DNA of 64,000 nucleotides from Hyphomicrobiales bacterium (GTDB lineage Bacteria > Pseudomonadota > Alphaproteobacteria > JAPOUT01). This document shows positions 8 to 3,745 of this stretch, piece after piece (positions within the stretch are counted from its first letter, which is position 1; every line of letters starts with the position of its first letter). Under the pieces are notes generated by a model. The model did not search any database and had not been told where the DNA came from. It was given only the letters and a program-made list of their open reading frames with translations. The position numbers were made by a program, and so were the translations under genes. Location of the stretch: NCBI GenBank assembly GCA_026708505.1, contig JAPOUU010000108.1, positions 1 to 64,000 of the forward strand. Direction: 5' to 3'.

Positions 8-292
8 TGGTGCCGCCGGAGTGAATCGGACACTCGACCTCACCCTTCACACCAGCTACCGCTTTCACGGCCGCAAATATCCATTCGCGTTTGTGGTCCG
101 GACCATCCCTTGACCCCGAAGGGGTCCCGCCCGTCTGGTCTCTACACCTTCCTCGAAAGAGGCTTGGCTCGGGATTGCCGTAGGCCGAATGCCCGTAGGA
201 TTCCCCGAATTTGAGCAGTTAACACCCGCCCGTTTCCAAGCGGGGAGGCAAATCACTACCAAGGGTGCGCTCTACCACTGAGCTACGGCGGC
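8..292 (-). tRNA. tRNA-Thr(GGU), split by a group I intron
   Basis: Read on the minus strand, exon 1 is 292-258 and exon 2 is 47-8. The joined exons make a full cloverleaf: acceptor GCCGCCG/CGGCGGC, D-arm GCTC/GAGC, anticodon stem CACCC/GGGTG with loop TTGGTAA (anticodon GGU, threonine), T-stem GAGTG/CACTC, discriminator A and an encoded CCA at 10-8. The exon boundaries were placed by the group I rule that the 5' exon ends in U and the intron ends in G, which puts the insertion between anticodon position 36 and position 37. One oddity is the T-loop TCCGATT, with C where the nearly universal U55 should be. Without removal of the intron no functional anticodon arm can form. Confidence 0.93.
48..257 (-). 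ncRNA. Group I self-splicing intron (tRNA type, IC3-like), 210 nt
   Basis: The RNA runs from 257 down to 48. Near the 5' end, GCC (249-247) can pair with exon GGU as a minimal P1 with the required U·G at the splice site. P2 is an 8-bp stem (CCCGCUUG/CGGGCGGG) capped by a GAAA tetraloop. The core contains AAAUUCGGGGAA, GGCAAUCCCGAGCCAAGCC and AAGGUGUAGAGACCAGACGG, which I recognise from the Azoarcus tRNA-Ile and Anabaena tRNA-Leu introns. P7 reads ACCA/UGGU where, from memory, Azoarcus has ACUA/UAGU: a compensatory change. A second GAAA hairpin near the 3' end fits P9. The length is close to the roughly 205-nt Azoarcus intron. It encodes no homing endonuclease. Confidence 0.9.
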
Positions 293-372: not shown

Positions 373-1770
373 ATGAAACACTCCACGGCTACCCTCCCCA
401 ATCGAGAGCAACGCCTCGCAAAGGCGCTACGGAGCAATTTGCGCAGGCGAAAGCAGGGCGTGTCCCCGGACAAGAGAATCGAGGAAGCGGGCGAGGGGGG
501 CGACATCCTTTCCATCAAGGGGGGCGCCCGATTGGTCGGAGAGATTCCCGTCAGCGGGGCAAAAAACGCGGCACTCCCGCTGCTCGTGGCGAGTTTGTTG
601 ACCGACGGGGAAATGCACTTCGATAACATCCCGGAAGTCAGCGATGTCCGCGTGTTGCTTGAACTTCTCAATATGCTCGGCTGTCGTAGCGAAAACCTAA
701 ACGGCACGTGGAAACTCCAAGCCGAAAACATCGCGCAAACCACCGCGCCTTACGAAATCGTATCCAAAATGCGCGCCGGCTTCTGGGTTGTCGCGCCGCT
801 GCTTGCTCGATGCGGCCAGGCGTTCGTCTCGCTTCCCGGCGGCTGCGCCATCGGTGCGCGTCCCGTTGATCTTTATATCAAAGCCCTGGAAGCCATGGGC
901 GCGACCATTTCGCTGGAGGAGGGATGCATCCGCGCCAACGCCCAAGACGGGCTTTCCGGCGCGCACATTCATCTGCCGTTCGTGTCCGTCGGTGTAACGC
1001 ACGTCGTTGCAATGGCGGCCTCGTTGGCAAAAGGCGAGACTGTTCTTGAGAACGCCGCCCGCGAGCCCGAAGTTGTCACCCTCCTCGAGTGTCTCAAAAA
1101 AATGGGGGCGAACATCAAGGGCATCGGAACGTCACGCATAACCATTGAAGGCGTTGGCGGGCTTCTGCGCGGCACGCGCCACGCCGCTCCGCCCGACCGG
1201 ATCGAGGCCGGCACCTACGCTATCGCCGTTGCGATTACCGGAGGGGAGGCGGTTTTGAAAGGCGTGGGCGTCGATATGCTTGAAAGCCTGCGGGACGTCC
1301 TCGTTGCCGCGGGCGTGGATATCACCGAAAGCGCCGAAGGGCTGCTCGTTGCGCGACGCACGCCCCGATGCAGTGCCGTATCCATCGAAACCGCGCCTTA
1401 TCCGGGATTTCCGACGGACCTGCAGGCGCAATTCATGGCAATGATGTGCCTTGCGGACGGAACCAGCACGATTACCGAAACCATCTTTGAAAACCGCTTC
1501 ATGCATGTTCCCGAACTCATCCGCATGGGCGCAAAAATCAATCTCCGGCGCGACAAGGCCGTTGTGCGCGGCGTGACCAAACTCACCGGTGCAAGCGTCG
1601 AGGCAACCGACCTGCGCGCCTCCGTCTGCCTCGTGCTCGCAGGGCTCGCCGCGCAGGGCGAAACCCGCGTGCGGCACATTCACCACCTCGACAGGGGCTT
1701 CGAAGGCCTCGAAGACAAACTCTCGGCATGCGGCGCGGACATTCGGCGCCTGAAGGAGACGCCCGCATGA
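373..1770 (+). CDS. murA: UDP-N-acetylglucosamine 1-carboxyvinyltransferase, N-terminally extended
   Basis: MurA transfers enolpyruvate from PEP to UDP-GlcNAc, the first committed step of peptidoglycan synthesis, in the cytoplasm. The protein has 465 aa. Conserved features are SGAKNA with catalytic Lys64 and the mobile loop GGCAIGARPVDLY with Cys159, the fosfomycin target. Family members have about 420 residues and start close to ILSIKGG; here about 44 extra residues precede that point without a stop. The extension includes ALRSNLRRRK, which resembles a small alphaproteobacterial peptide that I recall being encoded separately just upstream of murA. A GTG at 460 could give a shorter protein. 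No Shine-Dalgarno sequence is visible before 373. The stop overlaps the next ATG, so this is the first gene of a coupled operon. Confidence 0.93.
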   Translation: MKHSTATLPNREQRLAKALRSNLRRRKQGVSPDKRIEEAGEGGDILSIKGGARLVGEIPVSGAKNAALPLLVASLLTDGEMHFDNIPEVSDVRVLLELLNMLGCRSENLNGTWKLQAENIAQTTAPYEIVSKMRAGFWVVAPLLARCGQAFVSLPGGCAIGARPVDLYIKALEAMGATISLEEGCIRANAQDGLSGAHIHLPFVSVGVTHVVAMAASLAKGETVLENAAREPEVVTLLECLKKMGANIKGIGTSRITIEGVGGLLRGTRHAAPPDRIEAGTYAIAVAITGGEAVLKGVGVDMLESLRDVLVAAGVDITESAEGLLVARRTPRCSAVSIETAPYPGFPTDLQAQFMAMMCLADGTSTITETIFENRFMHVPELIRMGAKINLRRDKAVVRGVTKLTGASVEATDLRASVCLVLAGLAAQGETRVRHIHHLDRGFEGLEDKLSACGADIRRLKETPA

Positions 1771-2228
1771 ACAAGCCGCTCAAACTTCGAGGACAGGACA
1801 GCGAGGATGTTGCCATCATCGCATCCTGCTTGCAGGAATCCACCGGACAACTCGGCAACATGGTTTATCAGCCAAGACGCCGGAGCTTCTACTGCCTTCT
1901 CAATCGCTTTGCCCGGGAACGGCAAACCGAAGCGGGCGGGGACGCCGCCGAGAGCGTCGGCTGCCTGCTGTATTTCCACTGCGTTCTCGGGGCGCACAGG
2001 CGCAATCTCGACAAACTCGAGCGCGACGACTCGCTCTGTCTCATCACCCTGTATTTCCACGAGGGCGAGCCGCCCGGCGGAATGGTGCGCATGTTGTTTG
2101 CAAACGAAGGCGAAATCTGCCTGGACGTCGAGGCTCTCGACGTCTATCTCCTTGATATCGGCAAGCCGTGGTCTTCCATTGTCAAACCCGGCGATGCCTT
2201 GCTTAACATGGAGGCCTTACGCTCGTGA
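1767..2228 (+). CDS. DUF2948 family protein
   Basis: This 153-aa cytoplasmic protein of unknown function belongs to DUF2948, recognised from its N-terminus (LKLRGQDSEDVAIIASCLQ), its internal block YQPRRRSFYCLLNRF and its position between murA and hisD, where this family sits in many alphaproteobacteria. The start is the ATG that overlaps the murA stop as ATGA; an upstream ATG at 1728 would run 42 nt into murA. It ends in a GTGA overlap with hisD. No catalytic motif or membrane segment is visible. The conserved position suggests a housekeeping role, but none can be assigned from sequence. Confidence 0.85.
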   Translation: MNKPLKLRGQDSEDVAIIASCLQESTGQLGNMVYQPRRRSFYCLLNRFARERQTEAGGDAAESVGCLLYFHCVLGAHRRNLDKLERDDSLCLITLYFHEGEPPGGMVRMLFANEGEICLDVEALDVYLLDIGKPWSSIVKPGDALLNMEALRS

Positions 2229-3745
2229 GTCACCGATTCGATACAGCGCAAAAAGATTTTGATTCCCGGTTTCTCGAATTCCTGGGACGCCGGCGCGAAG
2301 CCGAAGGGGATGTTTCGCGCCAGGTGGCCGGCATACTCGAGCGCGTGCGACTCGAGGGCGACGCCGCCCTGCGCGAATACACCAAAAAGTTCGACCATTT
2401 CGAACTGCCCCACAATGAAGCCTTCGCCATTCCCGAAGAGGCGATCATCACCGCCTTTGAGATGTGCGAGCCCGAGACCATTGATGCCCTGCGCCTCGCC
2501 GCCGAGCGCATTGAGGCCTTCCACCGCCGGCAACTGCCCGAAGACCTCTTCTTTACCGATGACATAGGCGTCGGGCTCGGGTATCGCTGGAAACCCCTGC
2601 AATCCGTCGGACTCTACGTCCCCGGCGGGACCGCGAGCTATCCGAGTTCCGTCCTCATGAATGCGATTCCCGCCCGCATCGCCGGCGTCCCGCGCATTGC
2701 CATCGCAACGCCGACGCCGCAGGGCGCTATCCAGCCGCTCGTGCTCGCCGCCGCGCATATCGCCGGCATCACGGAGATTTACCGCCTCGGCGGAGCCCAC
2801 GCCATCGCTGCGCTAGCCTTCGGCTGCGACGGCATCGAGCGAGTCGATAAAATCATAGGACCGGGCAACGCATTCGTTGCCGAAGCCAAACGGCAAGTCT
2901 TCGGCATATGCGGCATTGATGCCATTGCGGGGCCGTCCGAAATCGTCGTGCTTGCCGAGGGGGACAACAACGCCGGGAGAGCCGAACCGGGCGGGAGGGC
3001 TACCGTGGGTCTCCTCTCGAAAGCCGAACCGGCCGGGCAGGCCGAGCAGGTCAAACAGGCCGAACAAACCGAACAGGCCAAATCGGCCGAACAGGCCGGG
3101 TGGGCCGAACAGACCGAGCAGGCCGGACAGGTCAAGCAGGTCAAACCGGCCGAACAAACCGAACAAGCCAAACCGGCCGAACAAGCCGGGTGGGCCGAGT
3201 GGATTGCCGCGGATCTCCTCTCGCAGGCCGAACACGATACATCGGCACGCGCCATCCTTATCACCGATAATGCCGCGCTTGGCGACGAGGTCGCCAAGGC
3301 CGTCGAGGCGCAACTCGCAAGCCTTCCGCGCAAAGACATCGCGGGGGAAAGCTGGAAAAACTTCGGCGCGATCATCCTGGTCAAGTCCATGGGGGAGGGG
3401 GCCGAAATCGTTGACCGGCTCGCCCCCGAGCATCTGGAAATCTTCTCGGAAAATGCCGGGCAAATCGCCGAAACCATCCACAACGCCGGTGCCATCTTCC
3501 TCGGCGCCCACACGCCGGAAACCATCGGCGATTATCTCGGCGGTTCAAATCACGTGCTGCCCACCAACGCGACCGCGCGTTTTGCCTCCGGCCTGTCGAC
3601 TCTCGATTTTCTCAAGCGGACTTCGCTGCTGCAATGTCCTCCCGAAGCGCTTGCGAAACTCGCCCCCGCGGCCGTCACCCTCGCACAAGCCGAAGGACTG
3701 GACGCCCACGCACGGGCCGTGAAACTGCGCATGAAAAAACCATGA
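2225..3745 (+). CDS. hisD: Histidinol dehydrogenase with a repeat insertion
   Basis: HisD performs the last two oxidations of histidine synthesis, L-histidinol to L-histidine, with NAD and zinc. Conserved blocks are YVPGGTASYPSS, GPGNAFVAEAKR, GPSEIVVLA, LLSQAEHD (zinc ligands Gln334 and His337 by family knowledge) and GDYLGGSNHVLPT. The protein is 506 aa against about 430 in the family. The excess is one insertion of about 75 residues (roughly 250-324), rich in Ala, Glu, Gln and Lys, directly before the zinc motif. The reading frame is intact and all recognisable catalytic blocks remain, so the enzyme is probably active. The GTG start overlaps the DUF2948 stop and the gene ends in ATGA with the next one. 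A hisN-type phosphatase lies at the other end of the window. Confidence 0.95.
   Translation: MSHRFDTAQKDFDSRFLEFLGRRREAEGDVSRQVAGILERVRLEGDAALREYTKKFDHFELPHNEAFAIPEEAIITAFEMCEPETIDALRLAAERIEAFHRRQLPEDLFFTDDIGVGLGYRWKPLQSVGLYVPGGTASYPSSVLMNAIPARIAGVPRIAIATPTPQGAIQPLVLAAAHIAGITEIYRLGGAHAIAALAFGCDGIERVDKIIGPGNAFVAEAKRQVFGICGIDAIAGPSEIVVLAEGDNNAGRAEPGGRATVGLLSKAEPAGQAEQVKQAEQTEQAKSAEQAGWAEQTEQAGQVKQVKPAEQTEQAKPAEQAGWAEWIAADLLSQAEHDTSARAILITDNAALGDEVAKAVEAQLASLPRKDIAGESWKNFGAIILVKSMGEGAEIVDRLAPEHLEIFSENAGQIAETIHNAGAIFLGAHTPETIGDYLGGSNHVLPTNATARFASGLSTLDFLKRTSLLQCPPEALAKLAPAAVTLAQAEGLDAHARAVKLRMKKP
3031..3210. repeat. 90-bp tandem repeat inside hisD
   Basis: Two 90-bp copies, 3031-3120 and 3121-3210, line up without gaps until the second copy passes into normal hisD sequence near 3198. 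Matching points are CAGGTCAAACAGGCCGAACA and CAGGTCAAACCGGCCGAACA, then GGCCGGGTGGGCCGA in both copies. Within each copy, 9-12-bp units built on GCCGAACA(G/A) recur. The period is a multiple of three and therefore preserves the frame, encoding KxAEQTEQAKxAEQAGWAE twice. Confidence 0.9.

Follow-up and report, generated by a model that had tools for sequence, protein, structure and literature searches.

A group I intron in the anticodon loop of a tRNA-Thr(GGU) gene from a Hyphomicrobiales bacterium, and its relatives in other tRNA genes

Why is a tRNA gene at the start of a Hyphomicrobiales contig broken in its anticodon loop, and can it still yield a tRNA? We examined a window of 64,000 nucleotides (the whole stretch of DNA analysed), in which positions 8–292, read on the minus strand, are a tRNA-Thr(GGU) gene split in the anticodon loop by a 210-nt insert. 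The window edge lies a few bases 3′ of the gene end. Exon 1 (258–292, minus strand) ends in CACCCUUGGU, with U36 as its last base at 258; the insert spans 48–257, with a terminal G at 48; and exon 2, together with an encoded CCA, spans 8–47 and starts at A37. Both exons are matched by a query with the spliced tRNA. The sequence-only reading had placed the cut after U36 of a tRNA-Thr gene at 8–292, and had taken the 210-nt insert for a group I intron; the first point was borne out by the boundaries, and the second by an Rfam match, homologues, covariation and a host-specific guide. Since the first base of the intron and A37 are both A, tRNA continuity would allow the splice boundaries to slide by one base. 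We chose the 258/257 boundary because group I introns have a U-G pair at the 5′ splice site and a terminal G, and with this boundary the window intron has both.

On the spliced sequence, ARAGORN called a tRNA-Thr(ggt) with a complete cloverleaf (score 119.1). On the unspliced window it missed the tRNA-Thr, its sole tRNA call being a tRNA-Lys, and Rfam at its gathering thresholds likewise reported the tRNA-Lys only and missed the intron. When E-values were used, the covariance-model check proposed earlier did return Intron_gpI (RF00028) at 264–72, with 27.9 bits and an E-value of 2.6e-5 for 400 bases (3.5e-5 for the whole genome). This is below the RF00028 gathering score of 50 bits, a bookkeeping cut-off rather than a structural feature; scores under it, such as 44.8, 35.9, 33.9 and 31.3 bits, were also obtained for related introns in Arg, Lys and Leu tRNAs. 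A fixed pattern of the core and exon end matched once in the window and in none of 100 window shuffles; it is the homologues and their covariation that exclude a chance match. We found no endonuclease reading frame in the intron, whose 210 nt hold at most 70 codons, and no open reading frame of at least 80 amino acids there. The intron is of a kind already known, the IC3-like tRNA group I introns: judged by features rather than by a subgroup classifier, it is short, lies in a tRNA anticodon loop and has no long P5 extension, P5 being a short hairpin. Taken together, the sequence comparisons indicate that the element is almost certainly a functional group I intron in tRNA-Thr(GGU). Outside the intron, the neighbouring gene (373–1770, plus strand) belongs to the EPSP synthase/MurA family (PF00275, E 3.2e-103) and is taken here as murA. 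Farther along, the histidinol dehydrogenase gene (PF00815; open reading frame 2225–3745) contains at 3023–3198 an in-frame tandem repeat of 9, 18 and 90 bp that encodes an insert rich in A, E, Q and K.

To describe the fold, we aligned 13 Thr introns with short exon flanks and placed P1 to P10 by hand on the window sequence (all coordinates on the minus strand). The internal guide sequence GCC (247–249) pairs with the exon GGU in P1, with U-G at the splice site. The alignment and a comparison with a second genome of the genus, G001, together place P2 (225–244, 8 bp with a GAAA loop), the P3 5′ strand (213–218, partner 132–127) and 3′ strand (127–132), P8 (112–126) and the P9 domain (51–97, with a GAAA-capped hairpin at 70–59). 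The alignment also places P4-P5 (169–208, P4 strands 208–203 and 174–169), P6-P6a (146–168), and P7, with GACCA as its 5′ strand (136–140) and UGGUC as its 3′ strand (101–105). The splice pair, 8-bp P2, conserved core and capped P9 hairpin noted in the sequence-only reading are thus all present. So is the P7 change it had described relative to Azoarcus: the pairs are C-G and A-U in the window and U-A and A-U in 9–10 of the 13 Thr introns.

Across the 13 introns, 96.4% of 647 cells held standard pairs, and 28 of 50 pairs showed a two-sided change. Covariation was 0.416, compared with 0.151 in shuffled alignments (none of 500 as high) and 0.052–0.104 when the structure was slid. Because the structure was derived from one of the 13 aligned sequences, the fold is favoured over the slid controls; the two-sided changes are independent of that origin. 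From P3 to P8 (helices 4–10, P7 included), pairing was 100% in all 13 introns. The weakest helices were P9 (89.2% paired), the P9 GAAA hairpin (90.0%) and P2 (91.3%), at least one pair being broken there in 7 of 13 rows, with L063 the worst. The P8 helix varies in another respect. A CUAA-type motif, which we take to be probably a tetraloop receptor, occurs exactly or with one change in seven of the 13 introns and is absent from the other six (the window, where P8 at 112–126 on the minus strand is a plain helix, G001, L089, L095, L101 and L144); where it is absent, L2 still has GAAA.

Of the 59 genomes searched, one other belongs to the genus, G001. It carries the same interrupted gene in a 150-kb contig beside the same murA-like gene (PF00275), so the split gene is not an accident of assembly. 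The 75 exon bases are identical between the two genomes, and the introns agree at 186 of 210 positions with no gaps; by simple arithmetic, the probability of no change in 75 bases at the intron's rate is about 1e-4. Of the 24 intron differences, 13 fall in helices, some of whose pairs were named for these two sequences only: six make up three two-sided compensations (P2 16/31, P8 132/146 and P9a 175/180), five keep the pair by G-U exchange, and two break one pair, at the tip (loop end) of P8. If a needed tRNA contained a working ribozyme, its exons would be expected to vary less than the intron, and the intron to change in ways that keep its fold; this is the pattern seen. These sequences directly show the anatomy, the homologues and the constraint that acts on exons and ribozyme.

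The tRNA-Thr has one unusual feature. Its T-loop (window 24–30, minus strand) reads TCCGATT, with C at position 55 in place of the near-universal U, the pseudouridine site. C55 occurs in none of the other readable T-loops among this genome's tRNAs, all of which have TTC; it is shared by the tRNA-Thr of G001 and by one of 22 intact Thr(GGU) genes, L272 (in G024).

Could the interrupted gene be a decaying or dispensable copy that is no longer spliced, with an intact Thr(GGU) gene elsewhere? A second intact gene, which the earlier reading had suggested looking for, was found in neither the window's genome (G000) nor G001, where the spliced-tRNA query gave the two halves and weak or partial matches. 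Both genomes are incomplete (93% for G000, in 121 contigs, and 90% for G001), so an intact copy could sit in the missing part. ARAGORN named 28 different tRNA genes in the best 30 of 32 tRNA matches of G000; within these, the only intact Thr gene was CGU and no Thr(UGU) was seen. About a dozen other expected tRNAs were also absent from those found, and a weak tRNA match (29.5 bits) lies at C22:47382-47490. The unusual C55 might be read as a mark of decay, yet the intact gene of L272 has it too, the spliced tRNA folds normally, and the exons have stayed unchanged between two species while the intron changed with compensation. We therefore consider a decaying copy very improbable. What we have looks like the only gene found for this essential tRNA, and from the conservation of its exons the product would be charged with threonine and used in translation.

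The site is also known in its empty state. A continuous Thr(GGU) gene was present in 22 of 29 other genomes searched, including G002 of the same order. As in G001, a murA match lay within the fetched flank (up to 1.5 kb) at 10 of these 22 continuous loci, and murA was also near the intron-bearing L050 and L084, a few hundred bases off within an 8-kb locus. Given the continuous genes in relatives and the shared murA neighbourhood, the insert sits in a resident gene.

How would the gene be expressed? With the exon end held on the guide in P1, a bound guanosine would attack after U36; the freed U36 would then attack after the terminal G of the intron and become joined to A37, giving a normal 75-nt tRNA, and the intron would be discarded. 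That these reactions occur, that they do so in the cell and that the tRNA is then charged we infer from characterised relatives and general knowledge of group I introns. In a variant of this scheme, cellular splicing would depend on a host protein, for instance a synthetase or a chaperone. The plain P8, lacking the motif that other Thr introns carry, could weaken folding; against this, all 50 named pairs form in the window intron, and a relative, the Arg(CCU) intron BbgpI of Bartonella, splices itself in vitro and also splices in vivo according to PMC7717549. We regard such a dependence as unlikely. The best overall explanation, in which we have high confidence from the sequences compared, is a group I intron that would splice itself from tRNA-Thr(GGU) and was most likely inherited in the genus.

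The proposal that the intron be sought in relatives was followed up, and it proved to be present in G001 and in other alphaproteobacteria. We searched with a pattern made of the core plus TTGGT, which gave at least 118 stretches in named genome contigs and 98 viral contigs; as the pattern favours Thr(GGU) by design, the counts are not frequencies. A first host caller required U55, which excluded the window's own gene, and a second allowed C55. The host caller required a U before the intron and a G at its end, so the survey rows do not test these two features. Among the matches listed, a host could be called for 107 of 118 genome cores (11 had no call): Leu(UAA) 34|35 in 45, Met/Ile(CAU) 36|37 in 27, Thr(GGU) 36|37 in 11, Lys(UUU) 34|35 in four, Asn(GUU) in four, and smaller groups that included some artefacts. 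The 11 listed Thr(GGU) carriers bear the labels Magnetovibrio, SAR116 (an alphaproteobacterial group), MarineAlpha10, Rhodospirillales, Rhodobacteraceae and, for two MAGs, Alphaproteobacteria; the other four are cultured species, Paracraurococcus ruber, Roseicella frigidaeris, Crenalkalicoccus roseus and Acuticoccus mangrovi.

A second survey used R1, a covariance model of the core built from 41 introns. The window intron was among these, so its own R1 score of 109.5 bits is no independent evidence. Among 385 genomes of the class, at least 49 had an R1 match, with at least 58 matches in all; these are lower bounds because filters were strict and few candidates were scored per genome. The hosts of the 58 were Leu(UAA) (17), Arg(CCU) (9), Thr(GGU) (5), Lys(UUU) 35|36 (5), Lys(CUU) (4), Leu(CAA) (4), Lys(UUU) 34|35 (2) and Thr(CGU) (2), with two doubtful calls, probably Leu, and eight uncalled. 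Two of the uncalled, G077 and G090, have a Thr(GGU) 5′ exon by eye, on contigs that end inside the intron. Thr(GGU) introns thus occur in at least 7 of the 385 genomes, including the window's own, G001, G077 and G090; in total we count 16 distinct ones, plus the Thr(CGU) and Thr(UGU) cases. The commonest host in both surveys was Leu(UAA), with the same core.

Several loci extend the range of sites. Introns inside or just before the anticodon (33|34, 34|35, 35|36) occur in tRNA-Lys(UUU) (the Lys loci being L035, L037, L338, L341 and L342), Leu(CAA) (L034, L046, L060, L166) and Asn(GUU) (L073, L130, L140). Two tRNA-Thr(CGU) genes have an intron at 36|37, L346 (G230) and L347 (G127); G127 also has a Leu(UAA) intron. 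At L353 (G239:C76), two weak core matches start about 470 bases apart in what appears to be one Leu(UAA) gene. A 5′ exon precedes the first match and a 3′ exon follows the second; the arrangement may be a twin intron or a single long one that carries an insert. Inspection by eye showed the Ser(CGA), Ala(CGC) and Arg(GCG) calls, and the Thr(CGU) call of L105 (a Leu-like gene), to be artefacts, and these were left out of the guide counts and trees. The Ile(AAU) call of L332 and the Gln(UUG) call of L333 probably represent Leu(UAA). The careful tree omits both, and also Phe(GAA) of L052, a single tentative case kept in the quick tree. In the IMG/VR viral contigs (loci L168-L265), 75 of 100 cores received a tRNA host, including Leu(UAA) 34|35 (29), Lys(UUU) 34|35 (18), Asn (6) and others, a few of them doubtful; cellular contamination of these contigs is possible. 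No Thr(GGU) host was called among the 100 viral cores (25 without a call). A 2014 review states that all phage introns observed to date lie in protein-coding genes (PMC3984707).

Comparing introns across hosts revealed that the guide follows the host. In 164 of 179 introns from ten host/site groups, viral rows included, the triplet 13 or 14 nt before the P2 GAAA matched the host exon end; 2000 shuffles of the hosts gave 59.6 matches on average and never more than 78. All 15 Thr(GGU) introns with a GAAA loop had GCC at this fixed register, and none of the 164 others did. These counts dropped the 14 of 193 rows without GAAA (one of the 16 Thr(GGU) introns among them) and left out Met(CAU) 33|34, Thr(UGU), Leu(UAA) 33|34 and single cases; in a looser count, the guide was present in 8 of 10 Met(CAU) 33|34 introns. 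For Lys(UUU) 35|36 (6 rows), the expected triplet GGA was set after seeing the data, the strict complement being GAA. Hosts were called without reference to the guide, so its agreement with them independently supports both P1 and the host calls. Counting the triplet anywhere in the first bases proved too loose, since 49 of 77 Leu(UAA) introns contain GCC in that stretch. The spacing between guide and tetraloop could be measured in 15 of 16 Thr and 79 of 81 Leu(UAA) introns, and was 13 nt in 13 and 67 of these, respectively. Because of this equal distance we rejected retargeting by deletion, in which the Thr guide UUGCC would derive from the Leu-type UUGAGUGCC minus four bases.

A tentative generalisation, which we rate at slightly below an even chance, is that bacterial anticodon-loop introns are one family re-aimed by a three-letter guide 13–14 nt from the P2 tetraloop, using any U of positions 33–36. 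Such a family would have entered Thr tRNAs at least three times (GGU and CGU at 36|37, UGU at 34|35), and its host could be read from the first 22 intron bases.

We then asked how the window intron came to its host. In a careful tree of 124 introns, it belongs to a clade made up of seven Thr introns and no others (98/87), the remaining members being those of G001, L089 and its near-copy L302, L336, G126 and Magnetovibrio. For this tree, Met(CAU) 36|37 was thinned to six rows, introns longer than 330 nt and viral rows were left out, and the bootstrap was not yet fully stable. Both Thr(CGU) introns were placed among Lys and Leu(CAA) introns (100/96), and a Leu(UAA) intron grouped with the Thr(UGU) intron from Pseudochelatococcus (98/81). 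This suggests three separate entries into Thr tRNAs; AU tests rejected neither a single clade of GGU and CGU (p 0.159) nor one of GGU and UGU (p 0.354). A quick tree scattered the Thr introns (4 changes), and we relied on the careful tree because holding them together scored far better than that scatter.

The Thr(GGU) introns themselves might have arisen several times rather than once, a Leu-, Lys- or Arg-type intron having entered separately each time. In the free careful tree the Thr(GGU) label needs 6 changes, and the Thr introns of L063 and L084 lie far off on long branches. On the other hand, a tree holding all 16 together was not rejected (p-AU 0.49, log-likelihood 1.85 higher), an earlier run holding 14 together gave a p-AU of 0.998, and the seven that include the window's form the supported Thr-only clade. 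Repeated origin is a serious contender, if a somewhat less than probable one. For the window intron, the most likely history is that it inserted into a tRNA-Thr gene already present on the chromosome of an alphaproteobacterial ancestor and was then inherited within the genus. Transfer from a similar U36|A37 site is possible; the careful tree points to no particular donor among the Arg(CCU) or Ile/Met(CAU) introns.

How does this intron compare with those already described? The Thr(GGU) introns of P. ruber, R. frigidaeris, C. roseus, A. mangrovi, the Magnetovibrio MAG and others have the same host, site and guide, with no difference in kind. The alphaproteobacterial Arg(CCU) introns (Agrobacterium and Bartonella BbgpI) share the bacterial class, the kind of core and the 36|37 site, the site being that of the Arg(CCU) introns surveyed here. 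Their gene was reportedly missed by annotation, like the window's Thr gene. They differ in host, in guide (GGG rather than GCC) and in clade, a comparison made on the Arg(CCU) introns surveyed here. The surveyed Leu(UAA) introns stand here for the cyanobacterial and plastid tRNA-Leu(UAA) intron; they share the core but differ in site (34|35) and guide (GAG). The Azoarcus intron is alike in being compact, in lying in a tRNA anticodon loop and in having GAAA loops and no long P5 extension, and unlike in its Ile host and probably in a P7 pair and P8. That tRNA-Ile(CAU) intron is described as group IC3 in PMC3984707.

The sequence-only reading had listed Leu(UAA), Arg(CCU), Ile(CAU) and initiator Met as the known bacterial hosts. 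That list was too short: PMC4853749 gives Arg(UCU) as well as Leu(UAA) as hosts in Thiomargarita, and in our surveys Lys, Asn, Leu(CAA), Thr(CGU) and Thr(UGU) tRNAs were hosts too. Inserts of 22–49 nt in cyanobacterial Arg, Gly and Lys tRNAs have been reported as ‘group I introns’ (PMC5733544); these look too short for ribozymes and were not counted. Threonine had been offered as a new host. This stands relative to the open literature searched: among the papers listed there, none was seen to report a group I intron in a bacterial tRNA-Thr. The terms tRNAThr, tRNA-Thr and tRNALys are absent from the available text of PMC3984707, and no such report appears in the available portions of PMC4033280, PMC6125680, PMC2630981 and PMC11835236. 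Uniqueness does not stand, since the 16 distinct introns make this host common to many other alphaproteobacteria. The surprise held by the single Thr gene is accordingly modest, and the guide-follows-host rule and the host range are the more interesting part.

With these findings, the known hosts of such introns come to include threonine tRNAs, in three isoacceptors. They also give a case in which a standard tRNA finder misses the apparent only gene for an essential tRNA; 36 genomes in which an fMet or Ile2 tRNA was missed owing to such introns are mentioned in PMC8450103. Since four cultured species carry the Thr(GGU) intron, its splicing can be tested in the cell. The fixed-register guide likewise makes the movement of introns between tRNAs directly testable, by asking whether a three-base change would lead to another tRNA being spliced or reverse-spliced.
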